NCBI RefSeq assembly: GCF_015206995.1
Contig: NZ_JADEXR010000014.1
Location: 1 to 64,000, forward strand
From: an aff. Roholtiella sp. LEGE 12411
GTDB taxonomy: Bacteria; Cyanobacteriota; Cyanobacteriia; Cyanobacteriales; Nostocaceae
Length of the DNA stretch: 64,000 nucleotides
Direction of reading: 5' to 3'
Positions 4,746 through 31,455 of the stretch are shown here, piece after piece (position 1 is the first letter of the stretch; each line of letters opens with the position of its first letter). Under the pieces are notes generated by a model. That model made no database searches, had not been told where the DNA came from, and saw only the letters and a program-made list of their open reading frames with translations. Position numbers and translations under genes: made by a program.

Positions 4746-5128
4746 ATTTATATAAAATGACTTAACTATTTTATATCTCAATTAGTCTTTGTTCTTAATA
4801 GAGTACGAATTACCTTTTGAATCAGCACGCCGTACAACAAAGATTTTTTGCTTTTACACTAAAGTCTCTAACTTGTATTGAAGCAATTAATCGCTGATAT
4901 CGTGATAATTCTAAATTGATGGTTGAAACCTAATTTATAAAAATTTACGTAATTAAATAAAAATTAATATGTTCTTAACTTAACTCGAGCAAAATTAACA
5001 GGTGTGTATAAAATATTTTACTGTGACTTCATAATTTTTTTAAAAATGATGTTAAATAGTGTTAGGTTGTATTAGTTGTAACAATAAAATCAACATAAAA
5101 TTATACTACATTGTAGGAAAATTAGCAA

Positions 5129-5746
5129 ATGTCTAGACAAAGTTCTCATGAGAGAAACTTTTTCCAAGGTTTAAGTGGTATTGCGGCGAAAAAATCCCCT
5201 AATTTGAGGCTAACACTGAAATTCTGTTTGGTGACTTTGGTTGAATCTGTACCTTTTTTGATTGCTTGTGCTGTATTTGTAAGCGTTATCAGTCTAAAAA
5301 GTCCTATCCTGCTTTTTTGTTTACTAGTTGGTAGTTTAATTGCAGTAATTGTGCAGCAAATTGGTCAGCAGGTGAATTTACCCAAGCGATCGCTGATCCC
5401 ATTACAAATCTTAGCAGTAGCGATCATTCTCAGTTTGTTTTGGTTAGACTATTTTGCAGTCCCTGCACAAGCGCAGTTCTTTGGGAAAGCTGAAGAATTT
5501 TTTAAAACCACCTTGACACAGGGTTCAACAACAAATAGCGGAACTCAAGCAGCGGTGAGTTTGATATTTAATGTATTGCGAGCAATTTACTTACTTTATA
5601 TTGCAATTTCCCTAGTTGGTGTAATTAACGCAGTGCGTAAAGATGAAGACTGGCAAAGTATAGCCAGAACCCCCCTTTTAGTCGTTGTTGCTGTTACCAT
5701 TGCTGATGTACTCACACGCTTTGTAATTGGCGATAACAGTAGATAA
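5129..5746 (+). CDS. VirB2-like pilin candidate
   Basis: The 205-residue product has two hydrophobic segments near the N-terminus, then a third that ends in a signal-peptidase-like site PAQAQ|FF at about residue 114, followed by two more hydrophobic helices (about 142-165 and 183-198) separated by a short charged loop (RKDEDW). A long leader ending in AxA, then a small two-helix mature protein of roughly 90 residues, matches the VirB2/TrbC conjugative pilin plan. It is the first gene of a nine-gene run whose next members look like VirB3 and VirB4, the canonical order. The assignment rests on topology and position, since sequence similarity within VirB2 families is low. Confidence 0.6.
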   Translation: MSRQSSHERNFFQGLSGIAAKKSPNLRLTLKFCLVTLVESVPFLIACAVFVSVISLKSPILLFCLLVGSLIAVIVQQIGQQVNLPKRSLIPLQILAVAIILSLFWLDYFAVPAQAQFFGKAEEFFKTTLTQGSTTNSGTQAAVSLIFNVLRAIYLLYIAISLVGVINAVRKDEDWQSIARTPLLVVVAVTIADVLTRFVIGDNSR

Positions 5747-5793
5747 GTCACTCTATACTCTATATAGAATGCAGGAAAATTAAGATATTTGCA

Positions 5794-6165
5794 ATGTCTC
5801 AAGAGCGTGAAGAAGAATTTCGTCCAGTCAATCAAATTCTGGGAAGTCAACCTTCATTAGGGCCAATCCCCGCCGATCAAATTCTTCCTTGGACACTAAT
5901 TTGCCTAGCCTCCTACTTTATCATCAACGGAATTTTTGGGGGGATTTTCCAAGAGGAGTTTCAAAAATGGTTGTGGACGGTACTAATTGCTGGTTGGGGA
6001 ATGGGGACTTGGTGGATATTAACTGGTGGTAGGAGTTGGAGTTTTTTAAGCAAATTTGTTGGTGTTCCCACTTGGACAAGAGGCTTTGCTCGTTATCAAA
6101 GCTTGCTAGAAGTTAACTATGAAGCAAAAAATCGGAAAAAAAAGCGTCAGCATCGCCGGAAATGA
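5794..6165 (+). CDS. VirB3-like small membrane protein
   Basis: A 123-residue protein with a polar N-terminus, two hydrophobic segments (about 31-48 and 57-75) and a very basic C-terminus ending KKKRQHRRK. VirB3 proteins are short inner-membrane proteins with one or two N-terminal helices and are encoded just before VirB4, as here. The last 47 bp overlap the VirB4-like gene in another frame, indicating translational coupling. The name is inferred from size, topology and gene order; no diagnostic motif is present. Confidence 0.55.
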   Translation: MSQEREEEFRPVNQILGSQPSLGPIPADQILPWTLICLASYFIINGIFGGIFQEEFQKWLWTVLIAGWGMGTWWILTGGRSWSFLSKFVGVPTWTRGFARYQSLLEVNYEAKNRKKKRQHRRK

Positions 6166-8866
6166 AACTAGATTAACACCATTTGAAGACGCTTTACATT
6201 TGGCGACAATGCTGCGCGTCTCACTAAATGGACGTGATATTGGCGCTTATATTTTAACCAAAGGAACCCAAAAAGATCGGTTTTGCTTTGTTTTTGGTTT
6301 TGAGTGTCGAGGTATCCACACCACTTTAAGGCCAGAACAAATCGACACAATTGTCAATAATATTGAAGCGGGTTTAAAAGATATCCCTACCGATGAAAGA
6401 ATGACGCTACATTTGGGATCTTTTAGTTCAGATAAAAGTCGCCAACAAGAATTAGCGTCACTGATCAAAAATGCGCCGTCACGAGATATAAAATATTTAT
6501 TGATGGCAGAACGAGCCAGAGTTAAAGAGCTAACTATCTCTGGTATTAGGAAGCCCAAATTTTTACGTATCTATGTTACTTATACTGTTGAGTCTAGCAA
6601 TACCAATGCAGATGATTGGATAGAAAGACTTTTAGCAAAAGCTGAATCATGGTGGTTGAAATTCAAAGGCGAACTATCAGAAGTAGAATACCAGCGCCTC
6701 GAAACTATCATTACTAATGCTTATAAACAAGGTTTTCTCCGCTGGGAGCAACTTTTAGCTAACAAAATGGGATTGGATATCAAGCCTTTGACTGCTGATG
6801 AACTCTGGGAAGAAACCTGGAGAAGATTTAATGATACGCAGCCCATAGATATTCCCCAATTAATTACTTTAGATGAAAATGGAATACACGAGCAAGTTAA
6901 TTCAGACTTACCAAGTACTAAATTACTGATAGATAATATCCATAGTACAACTTTGCTGATGGAATCTAGTGTCCCTTGTGCTGATCGTCGTTGGGTTAAT
7001 GTTAAAAATCGTTATATTGGCGTAATGACATTTTTAGAAAAACCCGGAGGTTGGCGAAACAAATCTACTCAGCTGCGTTATATATGGGAACTGCTAGCAA
7101 GAGAAACAGTAGTAGATACAGAAGTATTTTGTGAGTTGACGACTGCAAATCCAGCCTTTGTGAAAACTACCTTGCAACGAGTGCTGAAGCAGTCAAATAT
7201 GACGACAATTCTGGCTCAAGAAAAAAGTAAAACCATTGATGTCAACGCTCAATTAAAGTTAAAAAAATCCGTAGCAGCACAAGAACAATTATATGAAGGT
7301 GCAGTCCCGATTTACACGGGGATAGCAATTTTGGTACATCGTCCCAGTATAGAGAAATTAGAGGAAGCGACAAGATATATTGAAAACTGTTTTCAACGTC
7401 CAGCACGAGTAATTAGGGAAACAGAATATGCTTGGAAAATTTGGCTGCAAACTTTACCAATAGTTTGGGAGGGTTTGTTAGCAAAACCCTTCAATCGTCG
7501 CCAATTATATTTAACAAGTGAAGTTCCAGGATTAATGCCTTTAGTACTAACTAAACAAGGCGATCGCCAAGGCTTTGAATTGATTGCTGAAGAAGGCGGA
7601 ACACCCATACATATCGATTTGTTTAACCAACATAAAAACTTAGCGCTGTTTGCAACAACTCGTGCTGGTAAATCGGTATTAGTATCAGGGATTTTAACTC
7701 AGGCTTTGGCGCATGGTATTCCTGTAGTGGCGTTAGACTTCCCCAAACCTGATGGAACATCTACTTTTACTGATTACACAGAGTTTATGGAGGGGAATGG
7801 GGCGTATTTTGATATCTCTAAACAATCGAATAACTTATTTGAGCAGCCAGATTTACGATCGCTCGATCCAGAACAACAACGCGATCGCACACTCGACTAT
7901 ATCTCTTTTCTAGAATCAGCTTTAATGACAATGGTTTTAGGATCATCCACAGAGAGTCAGATTTTGTCACAAACCGTGCGATCGCTTCTCAACTTGGCTT
8001 TAGAAGCCTTCTTCGCTGACGAGGGTATCAAAGAACGATATCGTCAAGCGATCGCAGGGGGATTTGGTTCTCCAGCTTGGCCGAAAACCCCTACCTTAAA
8101 AGACTTTCTCTATTTTTGCTCACCAGAACATTTACAGTTAAATTCTGTAAGTGGAAGAGTTGACGACGCCTTGAGCCAAATTCAGCTACGCTTGCGGTTT
8201 TGGCTCTCTAGCCGCGTCGGACAAGCGATTTCTGCACCATCTAGCTTTCCCACCGATGCACAACTTTTGGTTTTTGCTCTCAGAAACCTATCAGATAGTG
8301 AAGATGCAGCAGTACTATCATTGAGCGCCTATTCAGCAGCATTGCGACGTGCATTAAGCAGTCCAGCATCCATATTCTTCATCGACGAAGCACCAATTTT
8401 ATTTGAATTCGAGCAAATTTCTGACTTAGTTGGCAGAGTTTGTGCTAACGGCGCTAAAGCTGGTATCAGAGTTATTTTATCAGCACAAGATCCTGATACC
8501 ATTGCTAAATCCAAAGCTGCATCTAAAATTTTACAAAACTTGACAACACGATTGATTGGACGCATTCAGCCAGTTGCAGTCGATAGTTTTGCAGATATCT
8601 TAAAATATCCCCGCAACATTATTTCTCGTAATGCTTCAGAAAGCTTTTTCCCGCGCAAAGAAGGTATTTATAGTCAGTGGCTCCTAGATGATAACGGTAT
8701 TTATACATTTTGTCGTTATTATCCAGGTTACGAACAATTAGCAGCAGTTGCGAATAACCCCTATGAACAAGCTGCACGCAGTAAAATAATGCAACTTCAC
8801 ACGGATAAATATGAAGCAATTTCTACATTTGCACGTCAGTTAGTGGCTACGCTACGTAGTAGTTGA
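6119..8866 (+). CDS. VirB4-like secretion/conjugation ATPase
   Basis: The 915-residue protein has a long N-terminal region followed by a RecA-like motor domain. The P-loop ATTRAGKS (about 512-519) has Lys518 and Ser519 but lacks the first glycine of the usual GxxxxGKS. The Walker B motif is IFFIDEA (752-758) and is followed by the VILSAQDPDTI segment typical of VirB4/TraG motors. VirB4 ATPases sit at the inner-membrane base of type IV secretion systems and energise pilus assembly and substrate transfer. The ATG at 6119 lies inside the previous gene. This is the best-supported member of the cluster and anchors the identity of its neighbours. No VirB11 or VirD4 homologue is in the window. Confidence 0.85.
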   Translation: MKQKIGKKSVSIAGNETRLTPFEDALHLATMLRVSLNGRDIGAYILTKGTQKDRFCFVFGFECRGIHTTLRPEQIDTIVNNIEAGLKDIPTDERMTLHLGSFSSDKSRQQELASLIKNAPSRDIKYLLMAERARVKELTISGIRKPKFLRIYVTYTVESSNTNADDWIERLLAKAESWWLKFKGELSEVEYQRLETIITNAYKQGFLRWEQLLANKMGLDIKPLTADELWEETWRRFNDTQPIDIPQLITLDENGIHEQVNSDLPSTKLLIDNIHSTTLLMESSVPCADRRWVNVKNRYIGVMTFLEKPGGWRNKSTQLRYIWELLARETVVDTEVFCELTTANPAFVKTTLQRVLKQSNMTTILAQEKSKTIDVNAQLKLKKSVAAQEQLYEGAVPIYTGIAILVHRPSIEKLEEATRYIENCFQRPARVIRETEYAWKIWLQTLPIVWEGLLAKPFNRRQLYLTSEVPGLMPLVLTKQGDRQGFELIAEEGGTPIHIDLFNQHKNLALFATTRAGKSVLVSGILTQALAHGIPVVALDFPKPDGTSTFTDYTEFMEGNGAYFDISKQSNNLFEQPDLRSLDPEQQRDRTLDYISFLESALMTMVLGSSTESQILSQTVRSLLNLALEAFFADEGIKERYRQAIAGGFGSPAWPKTPTLKDFLYFCSPEHLQLNSVSGRVDDALSQIQLRLRFWLSSRVGQAISAPSSFPTDAQLLVFALRNLSDSEDAAVLSLSAYSAALRRALSSPASIFFIDEAPILFEFEQISDLVGRVCANGAKAGIRVILSAQDPDTIAKSKAASKILQNLTTRLIGRIQPVAVDSFADILKYPRNIISRNASESFFPRKEGIYSQWLLDDNGIYTFCRYYPGYEQLAAVANNPYEQAARSKIMQLHTDKYEAISTFARQLVATLRSS

Positions 8867-9028
8867 TGAGTGGTGATCACTGAAGTTTTCAATTGGCATT
8901 GCTGAATCTAGATATGAAAAGCTCACGCAAAGGCGCAAAGGTAAAAAACAGTTTATCAGCTAATTCAGTAAAACTTTTAATTTCTAGCTAACCACACAAT
9001 TTTATCTACTTTTTTCAAGCAAAGATAT

Positions 9029-9841
9029 ATGCAAAAAACTACGGTTTTGACTCTTACTTTATTATCCCTAGCAATTCTACCAGTAATGGCACAATTAGGC
9101 GAGACTGGACAAGTAGGTGAGGTTTGGACTGATTTTCAATCATATTCTGTAGATTTGCAAAACTACCTGCAAAATAATTTGAGCGAAAACTTAAAACCTG
9201 TAGAACCGCAGACTCGAAGTGCTCTCACTAGTGCTACGGGAGAATTGAAAATACCTAACCCAATCACTGCTGGAAAGAGAGTTCGTGATGATATTTTTAT
9301 CAATTCGATATCAGATCGCTTTGAGAATAATTCAGTAGTCCGCTCAAATTTAGTTAGCAACGAAATCAATCGTCTAATTACCCGTGGAGCTGTTTCTGGG
9401 CTTTTAGGTGAAGCTGGGCAGATACGGACAAAAACGAAGTTAATAAATACTGAAAGAAGTTTGAGAGATATTGCAGAATTTAGTGAGGCAGCCGAGGAAA
9501 CAAGCCAAGGCTTGCTCGATCAACTTCCCTCCATTAATTTCGCTGGTATTGAGGCCAGTAAGATTGATCCAGCTACTGCACTTTTATCACAATTGTTAAA
9601 TGCCAATTTATCCCAAAGCATTAAAATCCAACAAGAACAATCAAAAATTGTAGGTGAAACATTTGCTCAAACACTACAAACCAATCAATCTCTGCAATAC
9701 TCCAACTTAAATTTAGCCAATATTTCTCAGCAAATGGAAGAAGGTAATCGTGCTCGCAGAGTAGATACATCTACAGAAGCAGCGCGACTTTTACGAGCCA
9801 CTTCTCAAATAGATTTATTTGGGACAAAAATTGATAATTAG
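9029..9841 (+). CDS. Secreted helical protein, VirB5-like by position
   Basis: A 270-residue protein with a clear signal peptide (MQKTT, hydrophobic core, cleavage near VMA|QLG at about residue 21). The mature part is polar, rich in Gln, Asn, Leu and Ser, and appears almost wholly helical, with no motif I recognise. In VirB-type operons the slot between VirB4 and the polytopic VirB6 is taken by the secreted, helical minor pilin VirB5/TrbJ, which suits this protein. The preceding gap of 162 bp is the largest in the run, so an internal promoter is possible. Function is inferred from context only. Confidence 0.5.
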   Translation: MQKTTVLTLTLLSLAILPVMAQLGETGQVGEVWTDFQSYSVDLQNYLQNNLSENLKPVEPQTRSALTSATGELKIPNPITAGKRVRDDIFINSISDRFENNSVVRSNLVSNEINRLITRGAVSGLLGEAGQIRTKTKLINTERSLRDIAEFSEAAEETSQGLLDQLPSINFAGIEASKIDPATALLSQLLNANLSQSIKIQQEQSKIVGETFAQTLQTNQSLQYSNLNLANISQQMEEGNRARRVDTSTEAARLLRATSQIDLFGTKIDN

Positions 9842-9867
9842 GAAAGAAAATAGTTAGTAAACTCAAA

Positions 9868-10917
9868 ATGCAGCTTGTTAATTTACCAATTATTGCCCAA
9901 GTAGGCATAGATGAAATCCTCGGTAATGGTGCTACAACTGCCCAAAGTATTGCCGAGGGTTGGGACAATCAATGGCTAGATTTATTACAAAATAATACCA
10001 GTAATAACTTGTATGGAGCGCTCACAAATCTAGGTGTGTTCTTTGCAGTAGGAACCTTGCTGTTTTTTATGTTACAATTCCTCAAAGATTTGATATACAG
10101 CGAATATGCCCGCCCTATATCAGCTTTGATTTGGCCATTCCTAGTGGTAATACTGTTAAGTAATTCAGGCAATGGAAGCATACTTTCTAATTTAACATTG
10201 GGAGTACGGAATTTGATAAATTCTGTAAATCAGCAAGTAGTGGTAACAACAAATACTGACCAAATTTATCAGCAAGCACTGAATATGAGTATTGCTGAAG
10301 AGGTGGCTGGTTCTTTACTGCGTCCTTGTCAGTCACTTACTGGTGAACAACAAAATAAATGCTTTATCAAAGCCACGGAAAAAGCTAACGAACTCTGGCA
10401 AGAATACAGAAATTTATACGGCAATAAAACTTGGATAGATAGATTAGAAAACAAGGTAAATCAAATTACATATAGCACAGGTACTGTATCTGAAAACGCC
10501 TTTAATGCTTTGCTAGGTTCCACAATCCAAACGAGCATCAAGAATTTCCTAGTCTCTTTACAATATGCCTTCCAAAATTTAATAGAAGCGACTATGTTAC
10601 TCATAGCAACATTAGGGCCCCTGGCTGTGGGTGGATCTTTGCTACCTGTAGCTGGTAAACCAATTTTTGCATGGCTTACGGGGTTTTTATCTATTGGTAT
10701 CGCCAAGATTTCATTTAATATTATTGCTGTGTTAACTGCCGCAGTTATTGTTAATGGCCCCGGTCAAAATGCTAATGTTGATCCAGACTTAATGTGGTTC
10801 ATAATTTTTCTGGGAATTTTAGCACCGATTTTATCTTTACTAGTGGCTGCGGCTGGGGGGTTTGCCGTCTTCAGTGCGATCAGCAATACGGCTTCTCTGG
10901 TGAAAGATAGGATATAA
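9868..10917 (+). CDS. VirB6/TrbL-like polytopic membrane protein
   Basis: The 349-residue product has an N-terminal amphipathic stretch, hydrophobic helices at about 53-70 and 77-95, a polar central loop of about 130 residues with two cysteines, and three or four closely packed helices in the C-terminal third (about 232-345), including a Gly/Ala-rich pair near the end. This long-loop-plus-helix-bundle plan is that of VirB6/TrbL, the inner-membrane channel component of type IV secretion systems. It starts 26 bp after the VirB5-like gene. No catalytic motif is expected for the family. Confidence 0.62.
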   Translation: MQLVNLPIIAQVGIDEILGNGATTAQSIAEGWDNQWLDLLQNNTSNNLYGALTNLGVFFAVGTLLFFMLQFLKDLIYSEYARPISALIWPFLVVILLSNSGNGSILSNLTLGVRNLINSVNQQVVVTTNTDQIYQQALNMSIAEEVAGSLLRPCQSLTGEQQNKCFIKATEKANELWQEYRNLYGNKTWIDRLENKVNQITYSTGTVSENAFNALLGSTIQTSIKNFLVSLQYAFQNLIEATMLLIATLGPLAVGGSLLPVAGKPIFAWLTGFLSIGIAKISFNIIAVLTAAVIVNGPGQNANVDPDLMWFIIFLGILAPILSLLVAAAGGFAVFSAISNTASLVKDRI

Positions 10918-10996
10918 GTTTTTAGCTAGGGGAGATTGGTAAGTAGTTAAAGATCAAGATAAATAAGCGATAACTGTTGGGTTGGGAGATGAGTAA

Positions 10997-11821
10997 ATGG
11001 TACGGTTATTAGAAAAAAGACAACGAACAGGAAGTATTTTAACAGCTTTTGCGATCGCCACCTTAAGTTTGCATGTATTAGTATTACTTCTGTTCCTATT
11101 TCAAGGGATTAAAATTCGCCAACTCAGCCTGAGAAAGCCTCCCAACTTTGTGCAAATGCTCGATGGTAAACCAGTAGCTGTTACTGATGATTTGGAACGA
11201 GAACCAGAAGCAATTCGCCAATTCATTAGTAAAACGATGATATCAATGTTTAACTGGTCTGGAAACCTACCACCACAAAGTATTGAAGAAGTTGCAAACC
11301 CCAAATCAGATTTAGGAATACTGATTAGAACAACACAAGGGGGTGGTCAAAAAATTAGCACCAGTAGTTGGATAGCTAGTTTTGCTTTATCAGAAGATTT
11401 TCGCAAAGGTTTCTTAAGCACAATTGCAGAAATAACGCCACCAGAAGTTTTCTCTGAAAACCCCAGCCAAGCTATGACATCACAGTTAATTATTAAGCGG
11501 GTTTATCCGCCGAAAAAAATTGCCCCAGGTAAGTGGCGCGTGGGGATGGTAGCTGACTTAATTCAAAAAAAACAAGTTGATAACAAAAGAATTATCACGC
11601 CTTTTAACAAAGATTTACTGGTGCGTGCAGTAGATTACTTCGCTAATCCACAAACCGACAATGCTACTACCCTGCAAAAAGCAATTTACAGTATTCGTAA
11701 TGACCAACTAGAAATCTACGAAATTCGGAATTTATGTTTGCTAGACGAATATAACAACCTGAATGAAGAACAATTAAAGCAATGCGGAAATAAAACAAAG
11801 TCTGGCAGTTTTATAAAATAA
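10997..11821 (+). CDS. VirB8-like bitopic protein, first of two paralogues
   Basis: A 274-residue protein with a short basic cytoplasmic tail, one membrane helix (about 15-38) and a periplasmic-type domain. The stretch after the helix (QMLDGKPVAV, then EREPEAIRQFISKTM) matches closely the start of the next gene product (QLIDGRAITV, then ERQPETIRRFVGESM), so the pair arose by duplication. A single N-terminal anchor with a globular periplasmic domain of about 200 residues is the VirB8/TraE plan, an assembly factor of the inner-membrane complex. Position between VirB6- and VirB10-like genes agrees. Confidence 0.62.
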   Translation: MVRLLEKRQRTGSILTAFAIATLSLHVLVLLLFLFQGIKIRQLSLRKPPNFVQMLDGKPVAVTDDLEREPEAIRQFISKTMISMFNWSGNLPPQSIEEVANPKSDLGILIRTTQGGGQKISTSSWIASFALSEDFRKGFLSTIAEITPPEVFSENPSQAMTSQLIIKRVYPPKKIAPGKWRVGMVADLIQKKQVDNKRIITPFNKDLLVRAVDYFANPQTDNATTLQKAIYSIRNDQLEIYEIRNLCLLDEYNNLNEEQLKQCGNKTKSGSFIK

Positions 11822-11860
11822 AATGTTTCCATTTAATCCAATTTATATAAATAATTATTA

Positions 11861-12553
11861 ATGCAATTACTTAAACCAGAAAATAAGAAAAATAGCTTTT
11901 TACCGCTGTTGGCAGTAGGAACATTTGGTTTGCATTTGTTCACTTTACTGTTACTAGTATTTCATGGGTCTATGTTGCAACAATTGGATCAGCAACTTAC
12001 ACCTCAAAGTTTAGTGCAACTTATTGATGGTCGTGCCATCACAGTAGATCCGCAACAGAATTTAGAGCGACAACCGGAGACGATTCGGCGCTTTGTCGGT
12101 GAAAGTATGACCTTAATGCTTACTTGGTCACAGCAACAACCGCCAAAAACAGTCTGGGAAATCAGTTCTCAATTGGTAGCTGATGATTTTCAGCAAAAAT
12201 TTCAGTCAGAACTTACTAATTTAAATCCAGAGAGTCAATTTGACTCTGTGAATAGAGGCACTGAAAATGTATTAGTAATCCAAAGAGTTTCTCAACCAAC
12301 AAAGATAGGTGATGGTCAGTGGAAAGTAGAGATTCTCGCTCATCAATTAGTTTTTAGCAGTTCTGACAAGCTAGGAAAGTCAATTTCGTTCAATAAACAA
12401 ATTTTAGTCAGAGCTATAGATCAACCAGCGACTTCACTACCAAATGCAGCAATTCCGTTACACTTAGCAGCTTACCGCCTCGGCGAAGCTAGACTAGAAA
12501 TTTATAATGTCTGTGAAATTCAAGATAAAAATTGTTCTGGAAATTCAAACTAA
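11861..12553 (+). CDS. VirB8-like bitopic protein, second of two paralogues
   Basis: A 230-residue protein with a basic N-terminus, one membrane helix (about 15-37) and a periplasmic-type domain. It shares with the preceding gene product the post-helix pattern (IDGRAITV, ERQPETIRRF) and a near-C-terminal segment (RAIDQ and LEIYNVCEI against RAVDY and LEIYEIRNL). It is shorter by about 44 residues. Two different VirB8-like subunits in one system could form a hetero-oligomeric inner-membrane ring. It ends 9 bp before the VirB10-like gene. Confidence 0.62.
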   Translation: MQLLKPENKKNSFLPLLAVGTFGLHLFTLLLLVFHGSMLQQLDQQLTPQSLVQLIDGRAITVDPQQNLERQPETIRRFVGESMTLMLTWSQQQPPKTVWEISSQLVADDFQQKFQSELTNLNPESQFDSVNRGTENVLVIQRVSQPTKIGDGQWKVEILAHQLVFSSSDKLGKSISFNKQILVRAIDQPATSLPNAAIPLHLAAYRLGEARLEIYNVCEIQDKNCSGNSN

Positions 12554-12562
12554 GTTGTAACC

Positions 12563-14146
12563 ATGACTAGATACTCAATTCCATCAGAAACTTCTGCACA
12601 AAATCTCTTCAATCTAACTACCGACGATCGCCAATTAGAAGTAGAGTCTTTAGATTGGGAATCGCGGATGGCAAGATTGGTTGGCTTTGAAGAGGAAGCT
12701 GCTCCTACCAAAGTCGCAGAATTAGAAGAATCTGCCATCCTACAGCCGTCACCTGAGCAGCCAGATGAGGTTCAGACTAAGCAACCCCTCTCATCTAATC
12801 CCTTTGCTAAGTTAGGTTTGGTGGGGATGGCTACCCTATCTATAGTTTTATTGGCTGGCGGATTTCTGTCCCAGTTGATGAACAGCGGTAATCAAAAGCC
12901 AAAAATTGAGACTTCTCCCCAAGTGCGATCGCAACCTATAAATCAGTCTCCTTCTCAAAATCTAGAAACAGAAGTAGAAACCCTAAAAACAAAATTAGCT
13001 CTAACTGAACAAGTTGAGTTAGTCAAAGCAGCACAAGAAAAGCTCAGAACTGCAAAATCAACGCCTGCGATAGCTTTACAGCCAAAGCCAGCAGTTTCTT
13101 CCAGAAATAGACCGCAGGTAGTAGCACAAGCAACACCAGCACCCGTGCGAACAGTTTATGTGCCTCGCGTAGTGACAGTACCATCTCCTCCACAAAGTCC
13201 TATTATCTCTCAACCTTCACCACCACCAGTTGTGCCAGTCGTCAATGTAACTCCACCACCTCCACCAAACCCCCTCGACGAGTGGACAAGGCTAGCAAAA
13301 TTGGGTAGCTATGGTCAGGTAAATGTCAGTGATAAACCTAATGTCATGGCAGCTACCTCTGAGCCTCCACAAAATACCCAGGTGGCGCAACAGCCACCAA
13401 ATCCCAATCCGAACCAAACGCCACCACAGGAACCCTCCTCTGTAGTCAATCAAGGACAACAACAGAGCCAGAGATCCGTAGCAGTAGGGACTAGCGTCAA
13501 AGCAGTATTAGCAACAGCTGTATTTGGGGAAACTAGTAAGGCCAGGAACAACGACGATAAAGACGAAAACGAGGATGTATTTGTTGTGCGTTTGAAAGAA
13601 CCACTCAAAGCTGTGGATGGTGCGATCGCTTTACCTGCCAACACAGAGTTATTAGCTGAAATTCGTTCTATTTCCGAACAGGGTTTGGTACAGCTAAATG
13701 TAGTCAAAGTTATTGTACAAAATAAGGGCAACATCACAGAAAGAAGCTTACCGCAAAATGCGATCATGATTCGTGCTTCTCAAGGTAAACCTCTCATAGC
13801 ACAACAATTTCCCAATCAATCATCATCCATTGCAGGGATGGATGTAGGAATATTTGTTTTGGGTGGTCTTGGCAAAGCCGCAGAATTATTTAATCGTGCT
13901 GATTCCGAAATTGTCTACCCTAGAGACAGCAACGGCAACGCAATTGGCACGCCATACACGATTAACAACAACACCAGACGCAACATTGCAGCTGGGCTAT
14001 TTGAAGGTGGTATTAATACGGTAGTTCCCCAAATTGCCCAACGCAATCAACAGGCTATCTCGCAAATGATGCAACGTACAAATGTTTGGTTTGTGCCTGC
14101 TGGTAAAAATGTTGAAATATATATCAATCAAGTAATGCAGTTTTAA
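12563..14146 (+). CDS. VirB10/TrbI-like protein
   Basis: The 527-residue protein has an acidic cytoplasmic N-terminus (about 1-80), one membrane helix (about 84-106), a long extended region rich in Pro, Gln and Ser (about 110-300, with several PPPP runs), and a C-terminal beta-rich domain (about 305-527) beginning near VGTSVKAVLATAVFGE. That order is the VirB10/TrbI plan, in which a proline-rich spacer crosses the periplasm between inner and outer membranes and transmits the energy state of the ATPases. Together with the VirB4-like motor it is the strongest evidence for the type IV secretion reading of the cluster. Confidence 0.8.
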   Translation: MTRYSIPSETSAQNLFNLTTDDRQLEVESLDWESRMARLVGFEEEAAPTKVAELEESAILQPSPEQPDEVQTKQPLSSNPFAKLGLVGMATLSIVLLAGGFLSQLMNSGNQKPKIETSPQVRSQPINQSPSQNLETEVETLKTKLALTEQVELVKAAQEKLRTAKSTPAIALQPKPAVSSRNRPQVVAQATPAPVRTVYVPRVVTVPSPPQSPIISQPSPPPVVPVVNVTPPPPPNPLDEWTRLAKLGSYGQVNVSDKPNVMAATSEPPQNTQVAQQPPNPNPNQTPPQEPSSVVNQGQQQSQRSVAVGTSVKAVLATAVFGETSKARNNDDKDENEDVFVVRLKEPLKAVDGAIALPANTELLAEIRSISEQGLVQLNVVKVIVQNKGNITERSLPQNAIMIRASQGKPLIAQQFPNQSSSIAGMDVGIFVLGGLGKAAELFNRADSEIVYPRDSNGNAIGTPYTINNNTRRNIAAGLFEGGINTVVPQIAQRNQQAISQMMQRTNVWFVPAGKNVEIYINQVMQF

Positions 14147-14261
14147 CTTGGGGAGTCAGGATTCAAGACGCCATTAATCGCGTCTGTACAAGAGACAGTA
14201 GTCAAAAGTTAGATTATTCCCATCTCTTCCTCATCTCCCTCATCTTCATCTGTTTGCAGCC

Positions 14262-14837
14262 ATGAAAAATAATCTCAACTTGCCAGGAAAGACCTCAAAA
14301 AAAGTTCATTTCCTACATTTAGCTTCCTTGATTTTCTCGGCTGCTATGTTCTTAGTGGCAGGTCGTGCCATAGCGAATAACGCCGTTCTTCGTTCGATGT
14401 TTTCCTGTCAAGCCCAAGGTTTAGGAGGAGCAATACCTACCATAAATGTTTCATATCAACAAGGAACAAACTTAAGCTTTATTCAGGCTGGAGAAGTAAT
14501 TAAAAAAGTTTGGTTAAACGATCCATCACAAGTAACTATAGACTTTGATGGCCCGGTATGTATGCAGTTCGGTCAAGACCGTAATACTAATGTAGGAGAT
14601 TGTCAAAAATCAGCAGCGAATGTAATGCAACTTAGACGAATTAACAAACTGAAAATTCCTGGACTTCCTAACACTAGCAACACACTTTTAACAGTTGTTA
14701 CTGAAGGACAAGGTAAAACTAAGTTGTATACTTTCCGAGTGATATATGAAGAAAATAGCCCAGAATATCACACTCTAGCAATTTTCCCTGATCCTCCTTC
14801 TGCTAACGAAGCACCTTGTGTGAGAGTTTCACAATAA
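14262..14837 (+). CDS. Secreted protein resembling the N-terminal half of VirB9/TraK
   Basis: The 191-residue protein carries a signal peptide (about residues 1-38, ending near AIA|NN). The mature part reads as beta-strands with the pattern GTNLSFIQAGEVIKKVWLND, then a PGLPNTSNTLLTVVTEG segment and LYTFRVIY, which resembles the first domain of VirB9/TraK/CagX outer-membrane core proteins. Known VirB9 proteins are nearly 300 residues with a second domain that binds VirB7; that part is absent. Four cysteines in the mature chain could form disulfides. It closes the nine-gene run after a 115-bp gap. Confidence 0.55.
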   Translation: MKNNLNLPGKTSKKVHFLHLASLIFSAAMFLVAGRAIANNAVLRSMFSCQAQGLGGAIPTINVSYQQGTNLSFIQAGEVIKKVWLNDPSQVTIDFDGPVCMQFGQDRNTNVGDCQKSAANVMQLRRINKLKIPGLPNTSNTLLTVVTEGQGKTKLYTFRVIYEENSPEYHTLAIFPDPPSANEAPCVRVSQ

Positions 14838-18602: not shown

Positions 18603-18833
18603 ATTAATCAGCCTTTGCACTCCATTAATCAGCCTTTGCACTCCATTAATCAGCCTTTGCACTCCATTAATCAGCCTTTGCACTCCATTAATCAGCCTTT
18701 GCACTCCATTAATCAGCCTTTGAACTCCATTAATCAGCCTTTGAACTCCATTAATCAGCCTTTGAACTCCATTAATCAGCCTTTGAACTCCATTAATCAG
18801 CCTTTGCACTCCATTAATCAGCCTTTGAACCTC
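18603..18833. repeat. Eleven-copy 21-bp tandem repeat
   Basis: The unit ATTAATCAGCCTTTGCACTCC is repeated without spacers about 11 times. The only clear variation is C versus A at one position (GCACTCC or GAACTCC); early copies carry C, then a block of A, then one C, which suggests expansion by slippage. Because 21 is a multiple of three, both strands can be read as repeated heptapeptides, but no start signal or non-repetitive coding sequence is attached, so I do not call a gene. It ends about 135 bp before the cobalamin riboswitch core. Confidence 0.95.
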
Positions 18834-18968
18834 GTAATATCAACTCCCGTTGATTAATTGTAATTCCCGCATCCGTACAAAAACCTGCCCCTTTGCACCA
18901 TGCGGTCTTTAAGTAAAAAAAAATTGCTCATCATAAGTCTGAGTAGCTTATCATGCTAAATTACTAAA

Positions 18969-26129: not shown

Positions 26130-27389
26130 ATGCAGGGAAATTTAAATGAAATTGATATTTGCAGTATTCTGCAATTGATTGAGTTAGGACAGCGAACTGG
26201 ACAACTATTGGTAGAAGCCCCTAGCTCTCACCATAGCAACAGGGATGGACAAGAAATTCTTGGATACCGCTCTAAACAACAGTCTTGGCTCGTCTTTTTC
26301 CTCAACGGTCAAATTATCTATTGCCAAGAAGGCGAGAGTAGTTTATCTCGGATTGGCGATTATTTACGTCATTACCGAGTTGAGATGCGACTCGAAGAAA
26401 TACAATCTGCCTCCCTATGCTCAATAAACGCACCAGAATATGCTTATCTTTGGGCACTCTTGGAGCGAAATATAATTAAACCGAAGATAGCTGTTAGCAT
26501 AATCCACGGTTTGGTACATGAAACCCTCTTTGACCTGCTGAGCTTACATCAAGGTAACTTCATTTTCCATCAGGGTGTAGCACTTGCCCCACAATTAAAC
26601 ACTTTGGAGATTGCTCCGCTGGTTACTAAAGTTACGAAGCAAGTGCAAGAGTGGAAGCAGCTATATCCACACATTCAATCTCCTGAACAATTACCAGTAC
26701 TGGCTGATCCAGTTCGGCTATGCTCTTCACTACCGACAGCAACATTAAATAAATTACAGCATTGGGCAGATGGGAAAACATCCCTGCGTCAATTGGCTCG
26801 CCATCTGAACCGAGACATTTTGACAGTCGCCAAAGCAATATATCCATACGTCCAACAGAATTGGCTACAACTAGTATATTCAGTGACATTACAGCTAGAA
26901 ACATACACAGAAAATAGAGAGTTAAAAGAAAATCACAGGAAGCGGATAGTATGTATTGACGATGCGATCGCCATCTGTGAAACTGTAGAGTCTATCTTGC
27001 AACCACATGGGTATGAGACAATCTCACTCACAAATCCTTTAGAGGCTCTCAGTCTCGTTTTTAAACTCAAGCCGGATTTAATTTTGTGTGATATAACTAT
27101 GCCGCAATTGGAAGGGTACGAAATTTGTACCATGCTGCGACATTCAACAGCATTTCGGCTTGTACCAATTATCATGCTGACTGGTAAAGATGGATTTATT
27201 GATCGAGTCAGGGCTAGGATGTTCGGGGCAACAGATTATTTGACAAAACCATTTACAGACACTGAGTTACTAATGCTCATAGCCAAATATATCAACAAAG
27301 AGTCTTGTGTATCCCATAAACGAGATCTAAGACTTGTTGATCTAACAAAAGATGAGGTAAAAAATGCTATCACAGAATCAGCAAACTAG
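26130..27389 (+). CDS. hmpA: HmpA, PatA-like PATAN plus receiver response regulator
   Basis: The 419-residue protein has an N-terminal PATAN-type (DUF4388-related) domain (about 1-250) and a C-terminal receiver (about 267-390) with acidic pocket CIDDA, phospho-acceptor Asp in LILCDITMPQLEGYE and the switch lysine in LTKPF. PatA-like proteins in cyanobacteria act as response regulators of pilus motility and heterocyst patterning. It is the first gene of the rightward hmp run; hmpB follows after 126 bp with its own strong ribosome-binding site, so hmpB-E may also have a separate promoter. Confidence 0.85.
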   Translation: MQGNLNEIDICSILQLIELGQRTGQLLVEAPSSHHSNRDGQEILGYRSKQQSWLVFFLNGQIIYCQEGESSLSRIGDYLRHYRVEMRLEEIQSASLCSINAPEYAYLWALLERNIIKPKIAVSIIHGLVHETLFDLLSLHQGNFIFHQGVALAPQLNTLEIAPLVTKVTKQVQEWKQLYPHIQSPEQLPVLADPVRLCSSLPTATLNKLQHWADGKTSLRQLARHLNRDILTVAKAIYPYVQQNWLQLVYSVTLQLETYTENRELKENHRKRIVCIDDAIAICETVESILQPHGYETISLTNPLEALSLVFKLKPDLILCDITMPQLEGYEICTMLRHSTAFRLVPIIMLTGKDGFIDRVRARMFGATDYLTKPFTDTELLMLIAKYINKESCVSHKRDLRLVDLTKDEVKNAITESAN

Positions 27390-27515
27390 TGAAACGTCAA
27401 TATCTAGTAAATTAGTTAGTGAAAAAATAGAATTAATTTATACACTAAATACTTGCGGAGGAATCAGGGAATGTTCCAAATAGGAACGTCTACATCAGGA
27501 GGTAGATAAACACTT

Positions 27516-27881
27516 ATGAGTACAGTTCTGATTGTGGAAGACAGTATCGCGCAAAGAGAGATGATTACAGACCTCCTGAAAGCAACTGGCCTAACAGTCA
27601 CCCATGCCAGTGATGGACTAGAAGCGTTGGAGGCAATTCAAAGCGCACCTCCCGATTTAGTGGTATTGGATATTGTCATGCCCCGGATGAACGGCTACGA
27701 AGTTTGTCGTCGGTTAAAGTCAGATCCGAAAACCCAAAATGTCCCTGTAGTAATGTGTTCTTCTAAAGGCGAAGAATTTGATCGCTACTGGGGTATGAAG
27801 CAAGGTGCAGACGCCTACATAGCCAAACCATTTCAACCAACTGAGTTGGTGGGAACAGTCAAACAACTGCTGCGAGGATAA
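27516..27881 (+). CDS. hmpB: HmpB, CheY-like response regulator
   Basis: A 121-residue single-domain receiver with acidic residues in LIVEDS (5-10), phospho-acceptor D52 in VVLDIVMP and the conserved lysine in AKPF near residue 104. It would accept phosphate from the CheA-like HmpE. An AGGAGG site lies just upstream of the ATG. The next gene starts 13 bp after its stop. PilH/PilG-like action on the pilus is the family expectation. Confidence 0.88.
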   Translation: MSTVLIVEDSIAQREMITDLLKATGLTVTHASDGLEALEAIQSAPPDLVVLDIVMPRMNGYEVCRRLKSDPKTQNVPVVMCSSKGEEFDRYWGMKQGADAYIAKPFQPTELVGTVKQLLRG

Positions 27882-27894
27882 GGATGAAAACAAT

Positions 27895-28425
27895 ATGGTA
27901 AGCAAACCGGACTTTTTAAGCGGAAGTGGTCAAGACCACTTCCGTCCTGAATTACAAGTAGAAAGTCCTGAAGGTGAGTTACATTTGAGATTTTACATTC
28001 CCTCGCATCAGGAGTTTGCACTACAAGCAACTGGCATCCGGGAGGTAATTGAACTAAGTCCTGATAGAATCACTCCGATTCCTAATGCTTCTCCTTTACT
28101 TTTGGGTACTCTAAATTTACGAGGTCGAGTTATTTGGGTGGCTGATTTGGGTCAATTTCTTGGAGAAGCAAGTGCATTAAACACAGATAGAGCTGAAATT
28201 CCGGTGATTGCCATTGAAGAGCAAGACACAATAGTGGGTTTAGCAGTAGAGGAAATTGGTGGTATGGACTGGCTGGATATACAGCATCTCATGCCACCAA
28301 CTGGTGTTCCAGATACTATGGCTCCCTTTTTGCGCGGAGAGTGGTTATTAGATACTAAAAAAAATCAATGTCTACGACTGCTCGATCAAATGGCAATTTT
28401 GCGGAGTGCACGGTGGGCAGGATGA
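27895..28425 (+). CDS. hmpC: HmpC, CheW-like adaptor
   Basis: The 176-residue protein is a CheW-domain adaptor, with the conserved pattern [39 protein letters not shown] and VAVEEIGGM. CheW proteins join chemoreceptors to the CheA kinase in membrane arrays. Its stop codon overlaps the first candidate ATG of hmpD (ATGA at 28422), indicating translational coupling. An N-terminal extension of about 40 residues is rather polar. Confidence 0.88.
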
Positions 28426-28439
28426 AATTGGAGGAGGAA

Positions 28440-31385
28440 ATGGCAGCAAGTATTGATGATTACGAGCCAAGATATCAGCTGGCGATGACAGCCTATGTAC
28501 AAAGGAACTATGAAGTTGCCGCTACTTTAGTTGACCAAGTGGTGCAAAGTTTCCCAAATGACCCTAACTCTCGTTTGTTACGGGGTCACATCTACTACGT
28601 TTTGCAGCAGTACGATGTAGCGCAAGAAGAATATCTACAGGTGTTGCATTTAACTGACGATCAAGAAATCATTGGTTTTGCCAATAATGGACTTGAAAAT
28701 ATTAATCAACACCTTCAAATACTAGGTAGTCAAGGTGATGCATCAGTAGATCAAGAGCAAATCAATCCCATAGAGATATCTGATTCTCTGGTACATAATG
28801 AACAAGAATTTGCAGATTTGGGTACTAGTAAGGAGTTTGATATCAGTAGCCTTGATTTAAAATCCTTTGGGGAGCATCAACAAGCTGTGAATGCACTGGA
28901 AGAGCTATCCTTAAACAGTTCATTTGACATACCCACAGACAGCATTGAATTTGAGAGAATATCAGATTCATCGATAACTTTTGGTGAAGATCCTTTTGCT
29001 TTTAATCAACAATTACAGGAGCAAGAGGTGGATGGCATCAATTGGCAGGAGCAAGCAGAATTAGAGTTACCCGCTTTCTGGCAACAAGATATCTCAGAAG
29101 AGAGTTTTGAAGAACCACTAGTGAATGGTAATTTTCTAGATTTGGGCGCAAATCTAACTAACGAAAGTTCGGCAATTGACAAAAATAACAATAACTATTC
29201 ACCTTTTGCCTCGGCTAATTCACAAACCATAAATAGCCAGAATAACTCTTCTGATTTCTTGATTGATTCCGAAGCTCAAAAAGCTAGTATTGAGAATTTG
29301 GAATTTCAAAAAACTAATCTGGTGGATGAAAACTTATTGATCGTCGAAATAGAACTTAAGAATGATTCAATAGCATCAAATAGCCTTGATTATACCAATC
29401 AAGATAATTTGTTGCGTCAGAAACAAATTGGGATTACAGAAGATTTGCAGCCGAAAAATACAGAGGTATCATCATCTTTTAATAATGGCAATTTTGCCCT
29501 GAAAGAAAAGCAGTTAAAATCAGATAAACTCATAGAAAAGAACAATTCTTATGATGATGAAAATTTTGATCTTGAAGCGTTTGAGTCTGCTTTTGGTTCA
29601 GAGGAATTAACATCTAGTGGAGATACTGAAGATACAAGTAGTATACAAACTGGAGAAAATTCTAAAAGCAATATAGAATTTTTAGACGATTTTGAAGAAT
29701 TTGACGATCTAGGGAATATTCCGGGGTTTGACCTGATAGGAGAAGATTCTAACTTCGGTGATATGGCAATGCATTCTGGTGCATTAGAAACCAATGGCGA
29801 TCTAGGCAGTAAAGACGTGGAGCCTATTGCAACTAATGTAGCTAGCGATCGCGAAGAAGAACTGTTCACAATTACTAGCTCACATGAAGCAGTCCCAGTT
29901 TTTACCCAAACAGATGTCTCGAAGATAGAACCTAATGTTACGGTCGAGCAGGGTTTGTTAGCGCCGTTAGAAAACGCTCCTATCCAAAGCAAACAGTGGT
30001 TAGTTGCTGGGAGCGTGGGTATTATATCGGCACTGGTTGTAGCTACAGTCAGCTTTGTAGCCACTACATTTTCTCCAGCGCAACAACGGGAATCAGTCAG
30101 GAACACAGGTTGGGCAATGTCACTAGCCGCTGGGATAGCAGGTTTTGCTACCGCAGGCTTCATGGGGACTCTCACACTCAAGCAAATTCGGCGTACAACT
30201 GACGATTTGCAAACTCAGTTTGATGCTGTACGCCAAGGAAATCTCAATGCTCAAGCCACAGTATATTCTGAAGATGAATTTGGGCAGCTAGCCGCTGGTT
30301 TTAATGAAATGGCGCGTGTAATTTTCACCACTACCAATGAAGCCCAGCGTAAAGCCGATGAACAAGAGGAGGCCAAAGAAAACCTGCAACGCCAAGTGAT
30401 TCGTCTGTTGGACGATGTGGAAGGAGCAGCTAGAGGAGATTTAACGGTACAAGCGGAAGTGACAGCCGACGTACTCGGAGCTGTAGCCGATGCCTTTAAC
30501 CTGACAATTCAGAACCTGCGAGATATTGTGCAACAGGTAAAAGTGGCAGCCAAGGAAGTAACCAAAGGTGCAACTAACTCCGAAACTTTTGCGAGAGCCT
30601 TATCTAGTGATGCTTTGCGACAAGCGGAAGAGTTGGCAGTCACGCTTAATTCCGTACAGGTGATGACCGATTCGATTCAGCGGGTAGCAGAGGCGGCGCG
30701 GGAAGCAGAAACTGTTGCCCGCGATGCTAGCACTATTGCTCTTAAAGGCGGGGAAGCAGTAGAAAATACCGTAGCGGGTATTTTGGAAATTCGGGAAACT
30801 GTTGCCGAAACTACCCGAAAAGTCAAACGACTGGCGGAATCCTCGCAAGAAATTTCTAAAATTGTGGCGTTGATTTCCCAGATTGCTTCTAGAACCAACT
30901 TGCTGGCACTCAATGCTAGTATTGAGGCGGCAAGGGCAGGAGAAGCCGGACGTGGGTTTGCGATCGTAGCGGATGAAGTGCGTCAATTAGCGGACAAATC
31001 TGCCAAATCTTTGAAGGAAATTGAACAAATTGTGATGCAAATCCAAAGCGAAACAGGCTCTGTAATGACCGCGATGGAAGAAGGCACACAACAGGTAATT
31101 AAAGGCACAAAATTGGCAGAAGAAGCCAAGCGATCGCTAGAAAACATCATTCAAGTGGCAAATCGTATTGACATTCTTGTGCGCTCAATTACTACTGATA
31201 CTGTGGAACAGACGGAAACCTCCCGCGCCGTTGCTCATGTAATGCAGTCAGTGGAACTCACAGCACAAGAAACTTCCCAGGAAGCGCAGCGAGTTTCTGG
31301 TGCTCTACAAAACCTAGTAGGTGTATCCCGCGACTTGATTGCCTCCGTTGAACGTTTCCGAGTGGAAACTATGGAAACCAGGTAA
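28440..31385 (+). CDS. hmpD: HmpD, methyl-accepting chemotaxis-like receptor with TPR input domain
   Basis: The 981-residue protein starts [20 protein letters not shown]. Residues about 1-95 look like tetratricopeptide repeats, about 100-510 form a long acidic, Asn/Ser-rich low-complexity linker, then come two membrane helices (about 519-545 and 555-577), HAMP-like segments and the receptor signalling domain with the hairpin tip [20 protein letters not shown] (about 820-840). Only about ten residues separate the helices, so there is no periplasmic sensor; input probably comes through the cytoplasmic TPR region. ATG 28440 has GGAGGAGG just upstream; ATG 28422 and an earlier in-frame ATG at 28368 inside hmpC are alternatives. 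Confidence 0.87.
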
Positions 31386-31416
31386 TTTGTCATTTGTCCT
31401 TTGTTATTTGTTTATG

Positions 31417-31447
31417 ACTCTTGACCCTTGACCCTTGACCCTTGACT
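31417..31447. repeat. Short tandem repeat between hmpD and hmpE
   Basis: ACTCTTGACCCTTGACCCTTG and onward: a 9-bp unit TTGACCC(TTG) repeated about four times in the 70-bp spacer. Similar (A/C)CCTTGAC and GTCAAAAGTC runs occur in several spacers of this window and are typical short repeats of Nostocales. Confidence 0.7.
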
Positions 31448-31455
31448 AAAAAACT

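Follow-up and report, generated by a model that had tools for sequence, protein, structure and literature searches.

We analysed a 64,000-nt window of DNA from aff. Roholtiella sp. LEGE 12411, namely the first 64,000 of the 67,782 bases of contig C37, in a host genome of 6.58 Mb that is 99.5% complete and assembled in 338 contigs. A first-pass annotation of the window had described nine collinear genes with the plans of VirB2, B3, B4, B5, B6, B8, B8, B10 and B9, the parts of a type IV secretion system (T4SS) of the mating-pair formation (MPF) type. All nine are open reading frames (ORFs) and lie exactly where that annotation had put them, spanning 5129-14837 on one strand with no interruption, in the order B2-B3-B4-B5-B6-B8a-B8b-B10-B9. 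A repeat element precedes them, and the features of the locus are the following.

4952..4981, + strand: tandem TTAA repeats ATTAAATAAAAATTAATATGTTCTTAACTT with an 11-bp period, a direct repeat resembling a Pho box, 148-177 bp upstream of the B2 start codon
5129..5746, + strand: B2, 205 aa, VirB2/pilin-like by position and topology
5794..6165, + strand: B3, 123 aa, small membrane protein at the VirB3 position, placed by position
6119..8866, + strand: B4, 915 aa, VirB4/TraC family ATPase by profiles and alignment
9029..9841, + strand: B5, 270 aa, secreted protein with a signal peptide, at the VirB5 position between B4 and B6
9868..10917, + strand: B6, 349 aa, polytopic membrane protein at the VirB6 position
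10997..11821, + strand: B8a, 274 aa, predicted VirB8 family by AlphaFold model and Foldseek
11861..12553, + strand: B8b, 230 aa, second VirB8 paralogue by alignment with B8a
12563..14146, + strand: B10, 527 aa, VirB10/TrbI-like channel protein by profile
14262..14837, + strand: B9, 191 aa, VirB9 reduced to its N-terminal domain, by AlphaFold, Foldseek and alignment

Profile searches supported two of the nine proteins, B4 and B10, the same two that the annotation had considered firmest. B4 matched TIGR02746 (TraC-F-type, 7e-14) and TIGR00929 (VirB4_CagE, 4.5e-12), both well below the curated cut-offs, and its P-loop ATTRAGKS and Walker B motif FFIDEA are unchanged across 14 aligned homologues. 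B10 has a proline-rich linker and a C-terminal TrbI domain, with residues 306-526 matching TrbI PF03743 over the gathering score (3.2e-9). The remaining seven proteins gave no convincing profile match, and profiles of B4, B5, B6, B8 and B9 found nothing relevant among PDB sequences.

Because convincing profile matches did not extend beyond B4 and B10, we predicted structures for B8a and B9. The AlphaFold model of B8a (mean predicted local distance difference test score, pLDDT, 78) shows a single membrane helix at the N-terminus and a periplasmic domain of NTF2-like fold, and Foldseek matched it to VirB8, IcmL, TraM/DotI, TrwG and CagV (probability 1.00, best E 3.7e-4); on this model, B8a is a member of the VirB8 family. 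The B9 model (mean pLDDT 76.5) matched the N-terminal domain of R388 VirB9 (TrwF, E 4e-5) and a chain of a Dot/Icm structure (E 1.2e-5). B9 stops at the end of the equivalent of the VirB9 N-terminal domain, and the C-terminal domain is absent. A short C-terminal tail found in most plasmid-type and sister-locus B9 homologues is absent here, and one plasmid homologue gave a weak CagX PF03524 match. Fold comparison adds two assignments, B8a and B9, and B8b is 32% identical to B8a in alignment. Orthologous loci carry two virB8 copies, against one in the plasmid-type and sister chromosomal clusters that were examined.

B2, B3, B5 and B6 were placed by position, signal-peptide or membrane pattern and conservation, which is weaker evidence; they fit VirB2, VirB3, VirB5 and VirB6 in position and topology, without convincing profile matches. 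B2 has a long leader ending in AVPAQAQ followed by two hydrophobic stretches, and an orthologue is present in 71/71 loci at a mean identity of 75%. B3, with a mean identity of 84% among orthologues, overlaps the start of B4 by 47 nt. Profile and PDB searches with B5 gave no convincing match, and the PDB sequence search with B6 gave no relevant match; W36, P90, C154, C165 and P260 are invariant in the B6 alignment. The annotated VirB plan thus stands for B4 and B10 by profile, for B8a and B9 by fold and for B8b by alignment, and for the other four genes by position and topology only. A VirB4-family ATPase, a VirB10/TrbI protein and the VirB8 and VirB9 folds are all present, as expected of a VirB/MPF cluster.

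Among 390 genomes of the class, VirB4 orthologues (at least 75% identity, full length) were seen only in the window's family (f1) and in a single genome from a different family of the same order. Some VirB4 match is present in 183 of the 206 genomes of the window's family, and at least 150 of the 206 carry a full-length VirB4 at 80-98% identity. Hosts among the named genomes are heterocyst-forming and include Nostoc, Anabaena, Komarekiella, Calothrix, Tolypothrix, Westiellopsis, Rivularia, Richelia, Nodularia and others. In good assemblies, the locus is chromosomal, lying on contigs of 4-11 Mb. Synteny, a check that the annotation had proposed, showed the nine genes in identical order and strand in 68 of the 71 named loci with enough flank (the named loci and the G-numbered genomes cited below overlap and are not independent samples), and the arrangement is therefore far beyond chance. 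The exceptions are Nostoc sp. T09, which lacks internal genes, and two Calothrix loci without a recognisable B9. In the T09 locus (L137), B6, B8a and B9 were not found, and it appears to be a rare decaying copy. Flanking genes are common to small clades, such as a PaaK-like gene and a kinase in the window's three nearest relatives. We saw no neighbour common to the whole locus set and no consistently linked cargo or partner, indicating that the cluster has moved between chromosomal contexts yet stayed intact. Nearly all heterocyst-forming cyanobacteria hold this nine-gene system in the main chromosome.

The ratio of nonsynonymous to synonymous substitution rates (dN/dS) between pairs of orthologues, also proposed as a check, was below 1 in each gene and pair tested. 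It ranged from 0.04 to 0.07 for VirB4, from 0.05 to 0.26 for B6, B8a and B8b, from 0.18 to 0.47 for B10 and from 0.15 to 0.70 for B5, making B5 and B10 the fastest-evolving subunits. VirB4 is under strong purifying selection, and given these low ratios the system is a maintained machine, not a relic. In a tree of cyanobacterial VirB4s, without other MPF classes, the VirB4 clade is monophyletic (Shimodaira-Hasegawa-like approximate likelihood ratio test, SH-aLRT, 100), and its nearest relatives are the chromosomal loci of G094 and family f27. VirB4 distances correlate with those of RpoC1 (Spearman 0.69, with 0/2000 permutations as high). Inheritance was mainly vertical, and the clade roughly tracks the host phylogeny.

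Downstream of virB9, related clusters on plasmid-type contigs and in a different cyanobacterial family have a gene for a 400-570-aa protein and one for a VirD4/TraG type IV coupling protein (T4CP); in the f27 family, this post-virB9 protein is fused to an M23 peptidase. The first-pass annotation had reported no relaxase or VirD4 in the window. This holds for the T4CP and the MOBV relaxase: tblastn with the T4CP, the post-virB9 protein and the MOBV relaxase, the one relaxase family searched for at the loci, recovered none of the three from the window or from any of 116 orthologous stretches. As a positive control, the T4CP and post-virB9 protein were recovered in 5/5 control loci. Neither the MOBV relaxase nor the VirD4/TraG coupling protein that would mark a conjugative element is thus found at the locus. 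No integrase was found among the window proteins scanned, some window ORFs lying outside the scan. A distribution that is mainly vertical and chromosomal speaks against mobility.

At the level of whole genomes, the T4CP domain TraG-D_C was absent, among the matches listed, from 30 system-bearing genomes in 19 genera, including the single-contig genomes G392, G399, G446, G474, G475, G499 and G524. The full-genome search for VirD4 and relaxase suggested in the annotation found both in the host, though away from this locus: T4CPs lie on C135 and C324, a MOBV relaxase lies on C324, and there are three further VirB4 loci. These parts of the host genome (G000) are spread over the separate contigs C43, C96, C135 and C324, of which C43 and C324 could belong to a single replicon that the assembly has divided. 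Use of such parts in trans is possible in the window's strain but cannot be a general explanation, because 30 genomes hold the system without any T4CP. What the locus retains is a complete inner-membrane and channel set, under selection, without a substrate receptor.

We then considered the repeat element upstream of B2. Three TTAA copies with an 11-bp period, about 150-190 bp before B2, occur in 42 of 77 orthologous upstream regions, compared to 0.08 expected from dinucleotide shuffles. The host genome contains six exact triple-TTAA sites, a count whose backward-pattern control is uninformative, as the reversed pattern is equally frequent; none of the five other sites lies by recognisable Pho genes. 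Cyanobacterial SphR Pho boxes consist of 8-bp CTTAACCT repeats with 3-bp linkers (PMC1906773), and their period is therefore 11 bp as well. With a Pho-box matrix built from 25 of the published sites, the phoA and pstS1 sites of Nostocales scored 17-22 and the window element 12.3. As a group, the orthologous upstream regions stood below those sites but well above the controls, with a median score of 11.8 against a control mean of 5.7, a comparison whose p-value is inflated because these regions are related by descent, and only 9/77 regions exceeded the control 95th percentile. A PhoB/OmpR-family site is a reasonable guess for the element, and we hypothesize that SphR may be its regulator. The hormogonium J-Box was not enriched upstream of B2 (1/77 within one mismatch).

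The closest known systems include the cyanobacterial MPF_C conjugative plasmids, of which pCC7120alpha carries the relaxase alr7199, the virB4 gene alr7206 and the virD4 gene alr7213 (PMC8600333). Our comparison rests on the plasmid-type clusters read here, among which the pCC7120alpha sequence itself is not included. These clusters share the order B2-B3-B4-B5-B6-B8-B10-B9, and their VirB4 is about 35-62% identical to that of the window. They differ in having a gene after virB9, in usually having a T4CP, in their single virB8 and in their scattered distribution. In one of them (L066:15976-19914), the T4CP gene is in two pieces with a reverse-transcriptase/HNH ORF between them, resembling a group II intron.

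A chromosomal T4SS in family f27 (L047-L053, L062) is closer, with the same core order on chromosome-size contigs and a VirB4 about 64% identical, but it has one VirB8 and a T4CP, its post-virB9 protein is the one fused to an M23 peptidase, and ParA-like genes lie upstream. It forms a second chromosomal type, perhaps a plasmid that has integrated or a further case of domestication; no relaxase was noticed in it and none was searched for. Other chromosomal clusters depart further from the shared plan. L046, on the 4.2-Mb chromosome of G094, is a remodelled cluster that retains B2-B6 and has WG-repeat, WD40-like and M23/peptidoglycan-binding proteins in place of B8, B10 and B9, followed by a T4CP. 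L060 and L061, on the chromosomes of G013 and G047, have VirB4 and B2-/B3-like genes with no recognisable B5-B10 downstream.

Outside cyanobacteria, T4SSs without VirD4 have known or proposed outputs that include adhesive pili (Trw), periplasmic export (Ptl and part of Brucella) and DNA uptake (ComB) (PMC12857230). Bartonella Trw resembles the system described here as a VirB-only T4SS without a T4CP that is proposed to form surface pili (PMC12857230). Trw has many variable VirB2/VirB5 copies and binds host cells, whereas the present locus has single B2 and B5 genes and two VirB8 genes in a free-living phototroph. Bordetella Ptl and Brucella VirB also lack VirD4 (PMC12857230) but are protein exporters of pathogens, and no linked cargo was found at the cyanobacterial locus. 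Helicobacter pylori ComB is likewise a chromosomal VirB2-4/6-10 machine without VirD4 (PMC12857230, PMC13395361). It differs in its MPF_T descent, its lack of VirB5, its need for an unlinked VirB11 (HP1421) and its two operons, and its DNA uptake is proven, whereas for the cyanobacterial system uptake is a hypothesis.

Based on this information, the locus probably encodes a domesticated T4SS of the cyanobacterial conjugation lineage without the DNA-loading parts, with alternatives open as to its output. It is very likely that a mating apparatus underwent ancient domestication after being taken into the chromosome close to the root of the heterocystous clade. Domestication is supported by the family-wide conservation, collinearity and monophyly of the system, by purifying selection and by the absence of a T4CP from the loci. 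The same clade-wide evidence favours one of the two options that the first-pass annotation had offered, a domesticated apparatus, and leaves its exact function among the rivals below.

In such a machine, B4 would drive the building of a pilus or pseudopilus of VirB2 type with B5 as its VirB5-type tip protein, and B3, B6, the two B8 proteins, B9 and B10 would make up the envelope channel. As many hosts have no cytoplasmic receptor, the machine cannot depend on VirD4, and there would be no VirD4-dependent pick-up of cytoplasmic DNA or proteins. By analogy with Bartonella Trw, we tentatively propose the pilus or contact structure as the likeliest output in its own right, at somewhat less than an even chance; export fed from the periplasm comes second. 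A surface structure is favoured because the pilin- and tip-position genes are retained and B5 diverges fast, and the fast divergence of B5 and B10 matches what is expected of exposed parts. The Pho-box-like element, for its part, would favour nutrient-related export or uptake. A bolder version, which we regard as rather unlikely, is an ancestral phosphate-responsive, conjugation-derived pilus-channel without a coupling protein that would be a core trait of heterocystous cyanobacteria and mediate cell-cell or surface contact or the import of DNA as a nutrient.

Several observations weigh against a domesticated, vertically inherited surface structure. The fast divergence of B5 and B10 could equally reflect relaxed constraint, and the identities of B2 and B5 are drawn from position and topology. 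No pilus, substrate or phenotype is on record for the locus, and the coupling proteins of other T4SS clusters in many genomes, including the host, might serve it in trans. The VirB4 and RpoC1 trees have 8/27 splits in common, RpoC1 being a single slowly evolving marker, and the orthologue from G347 is nested inside the VirB4 clade although it comes from another family. This nesting suggests that the G347 copy was probably acquired horizontally, in one transfer. In that copy (L044/L207), the B5-B10 block is inverted relative to B2-B4.

Among the rival explanations, a periplasm-fed exporter of the Ptl/Brucella kind fares best, and we still consider it unlikely. Sec or Tat would carry the substrates across the inner membrane, for instance phosphatases, nucleases or polypeptides that affect nearby cells, and the machine would then expel them, driven by VirB4. 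Retention of the channel parts in the absence of a T4CP is the anatomy of a two-step exporter (PMC12857230), and a Pho-box-like element would suit exoenzymes of phosphate stress. However, no cargo-like gene is consistently linked to the locus, where the neighbours are clade-specific and none was seen across genera, and a VirB5-position protein is retained here, whereas Ptl is without one (PMC12857230).

DNA uptake as in Helicobacter ComB is less probable again. A pseudopilus would bind outside DNA, VirB4 would drive it into the periplasm and ComEC would bring it on into the cytoplasm, where it would serve transformation or supply phosphorus. ComB has the closest known parts list (VirB2-4 and VirB6-10 without VirD4; PMC12857230, PMC13395361), ComEC is present in 200/206 genomes, and the Pho-box-like element fits phosphorus scavenging. 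ComEC is equally frequent in genomes without the T4SS, however, so there is no co-loss, and it was undetected in G283, a T4SS-bearing genome. Furthermore, ComB has no VirB5, whereas the VirB5-position gene is kept here, and the general route of cyanobacterial transformation is by type IV pili.

It is improbable that the chromosomal channel is a helper on which the relaxase and T4CP of resident plasmids dock in trans. A T4CP match is found in 120 of the 150 listed genomes with the system, and the host has both T4CPs (C135, C324) and a MOBV relaxase (C324), but T4CPs adjoin their own VirB4 genes in the clusters read, and 30 genomes, seven of them listed as single-contig, have the system and no T4CP. 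The other option of the annotation, a decayed conjugative element now being lost, is scarcely credible: the locus does lack a relaxase and a T4CP, internal genes are gone from Nostoc sp. T09 and no B9 is recognisable in two Calothrix loci, but 68/71 loci are complete, all nine genes are under purifying selection, the upstream element is conserved, a VirB4 orthologue is found in at least 150/206 genomes and the locus is without a T4CP throughout the clade.

Relaxase-less cyanobacterial T4SSs and cyanobacterial conjugative plasmids (PMC8600333) were already known. Guglielmini et al. (2011) defined MOBless T4SSs as VirB4 clusters without a nearby relaxase and, without further detail, named cyanobacteria among the hosts in one sentence (PMC3158045); the main text of that paper contains nothing on this locus, its lack of a T4CP, its heterocystous spread, the VirB8 pair or the upstream element. 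Although the system shows the conservation of core machinery, our literature search, which omitted most subscription papers, turned up no paper describing it. The T4CP-less T4SSs covered in one review (Ptl, Brucella VirB, ComB and Trw) are all from host-associated bacteria (PMC12857230). If our interpretation is true, a free-living lineage, the main clade of multicellular, nitrogen-fixing cyanobacteria, has domesticated a mating machine independently, and genetically tractable relatives (Anabaena, Nostoc) would offer a test bed for a machine without DNA or effector loading.

Co-occurrence of the system with gas vesicles, a sign of planktonic life, was suggestive but confounded by genus g5, and we did not use it. 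Elsewhere in the window, a chemotaxis-like set of response regulators, a methyl-accepting chemotaxis protein and a long CheA-like kinase lies at 26130-36807, 11 kb downstream of the T4SS, a linkage that is not kept in the loci read. At 18615-18857, between cobalamin genes, there is a short ORF that consists almost entirely of a tandem HSINQPL/NSINQPL heptad repeat.

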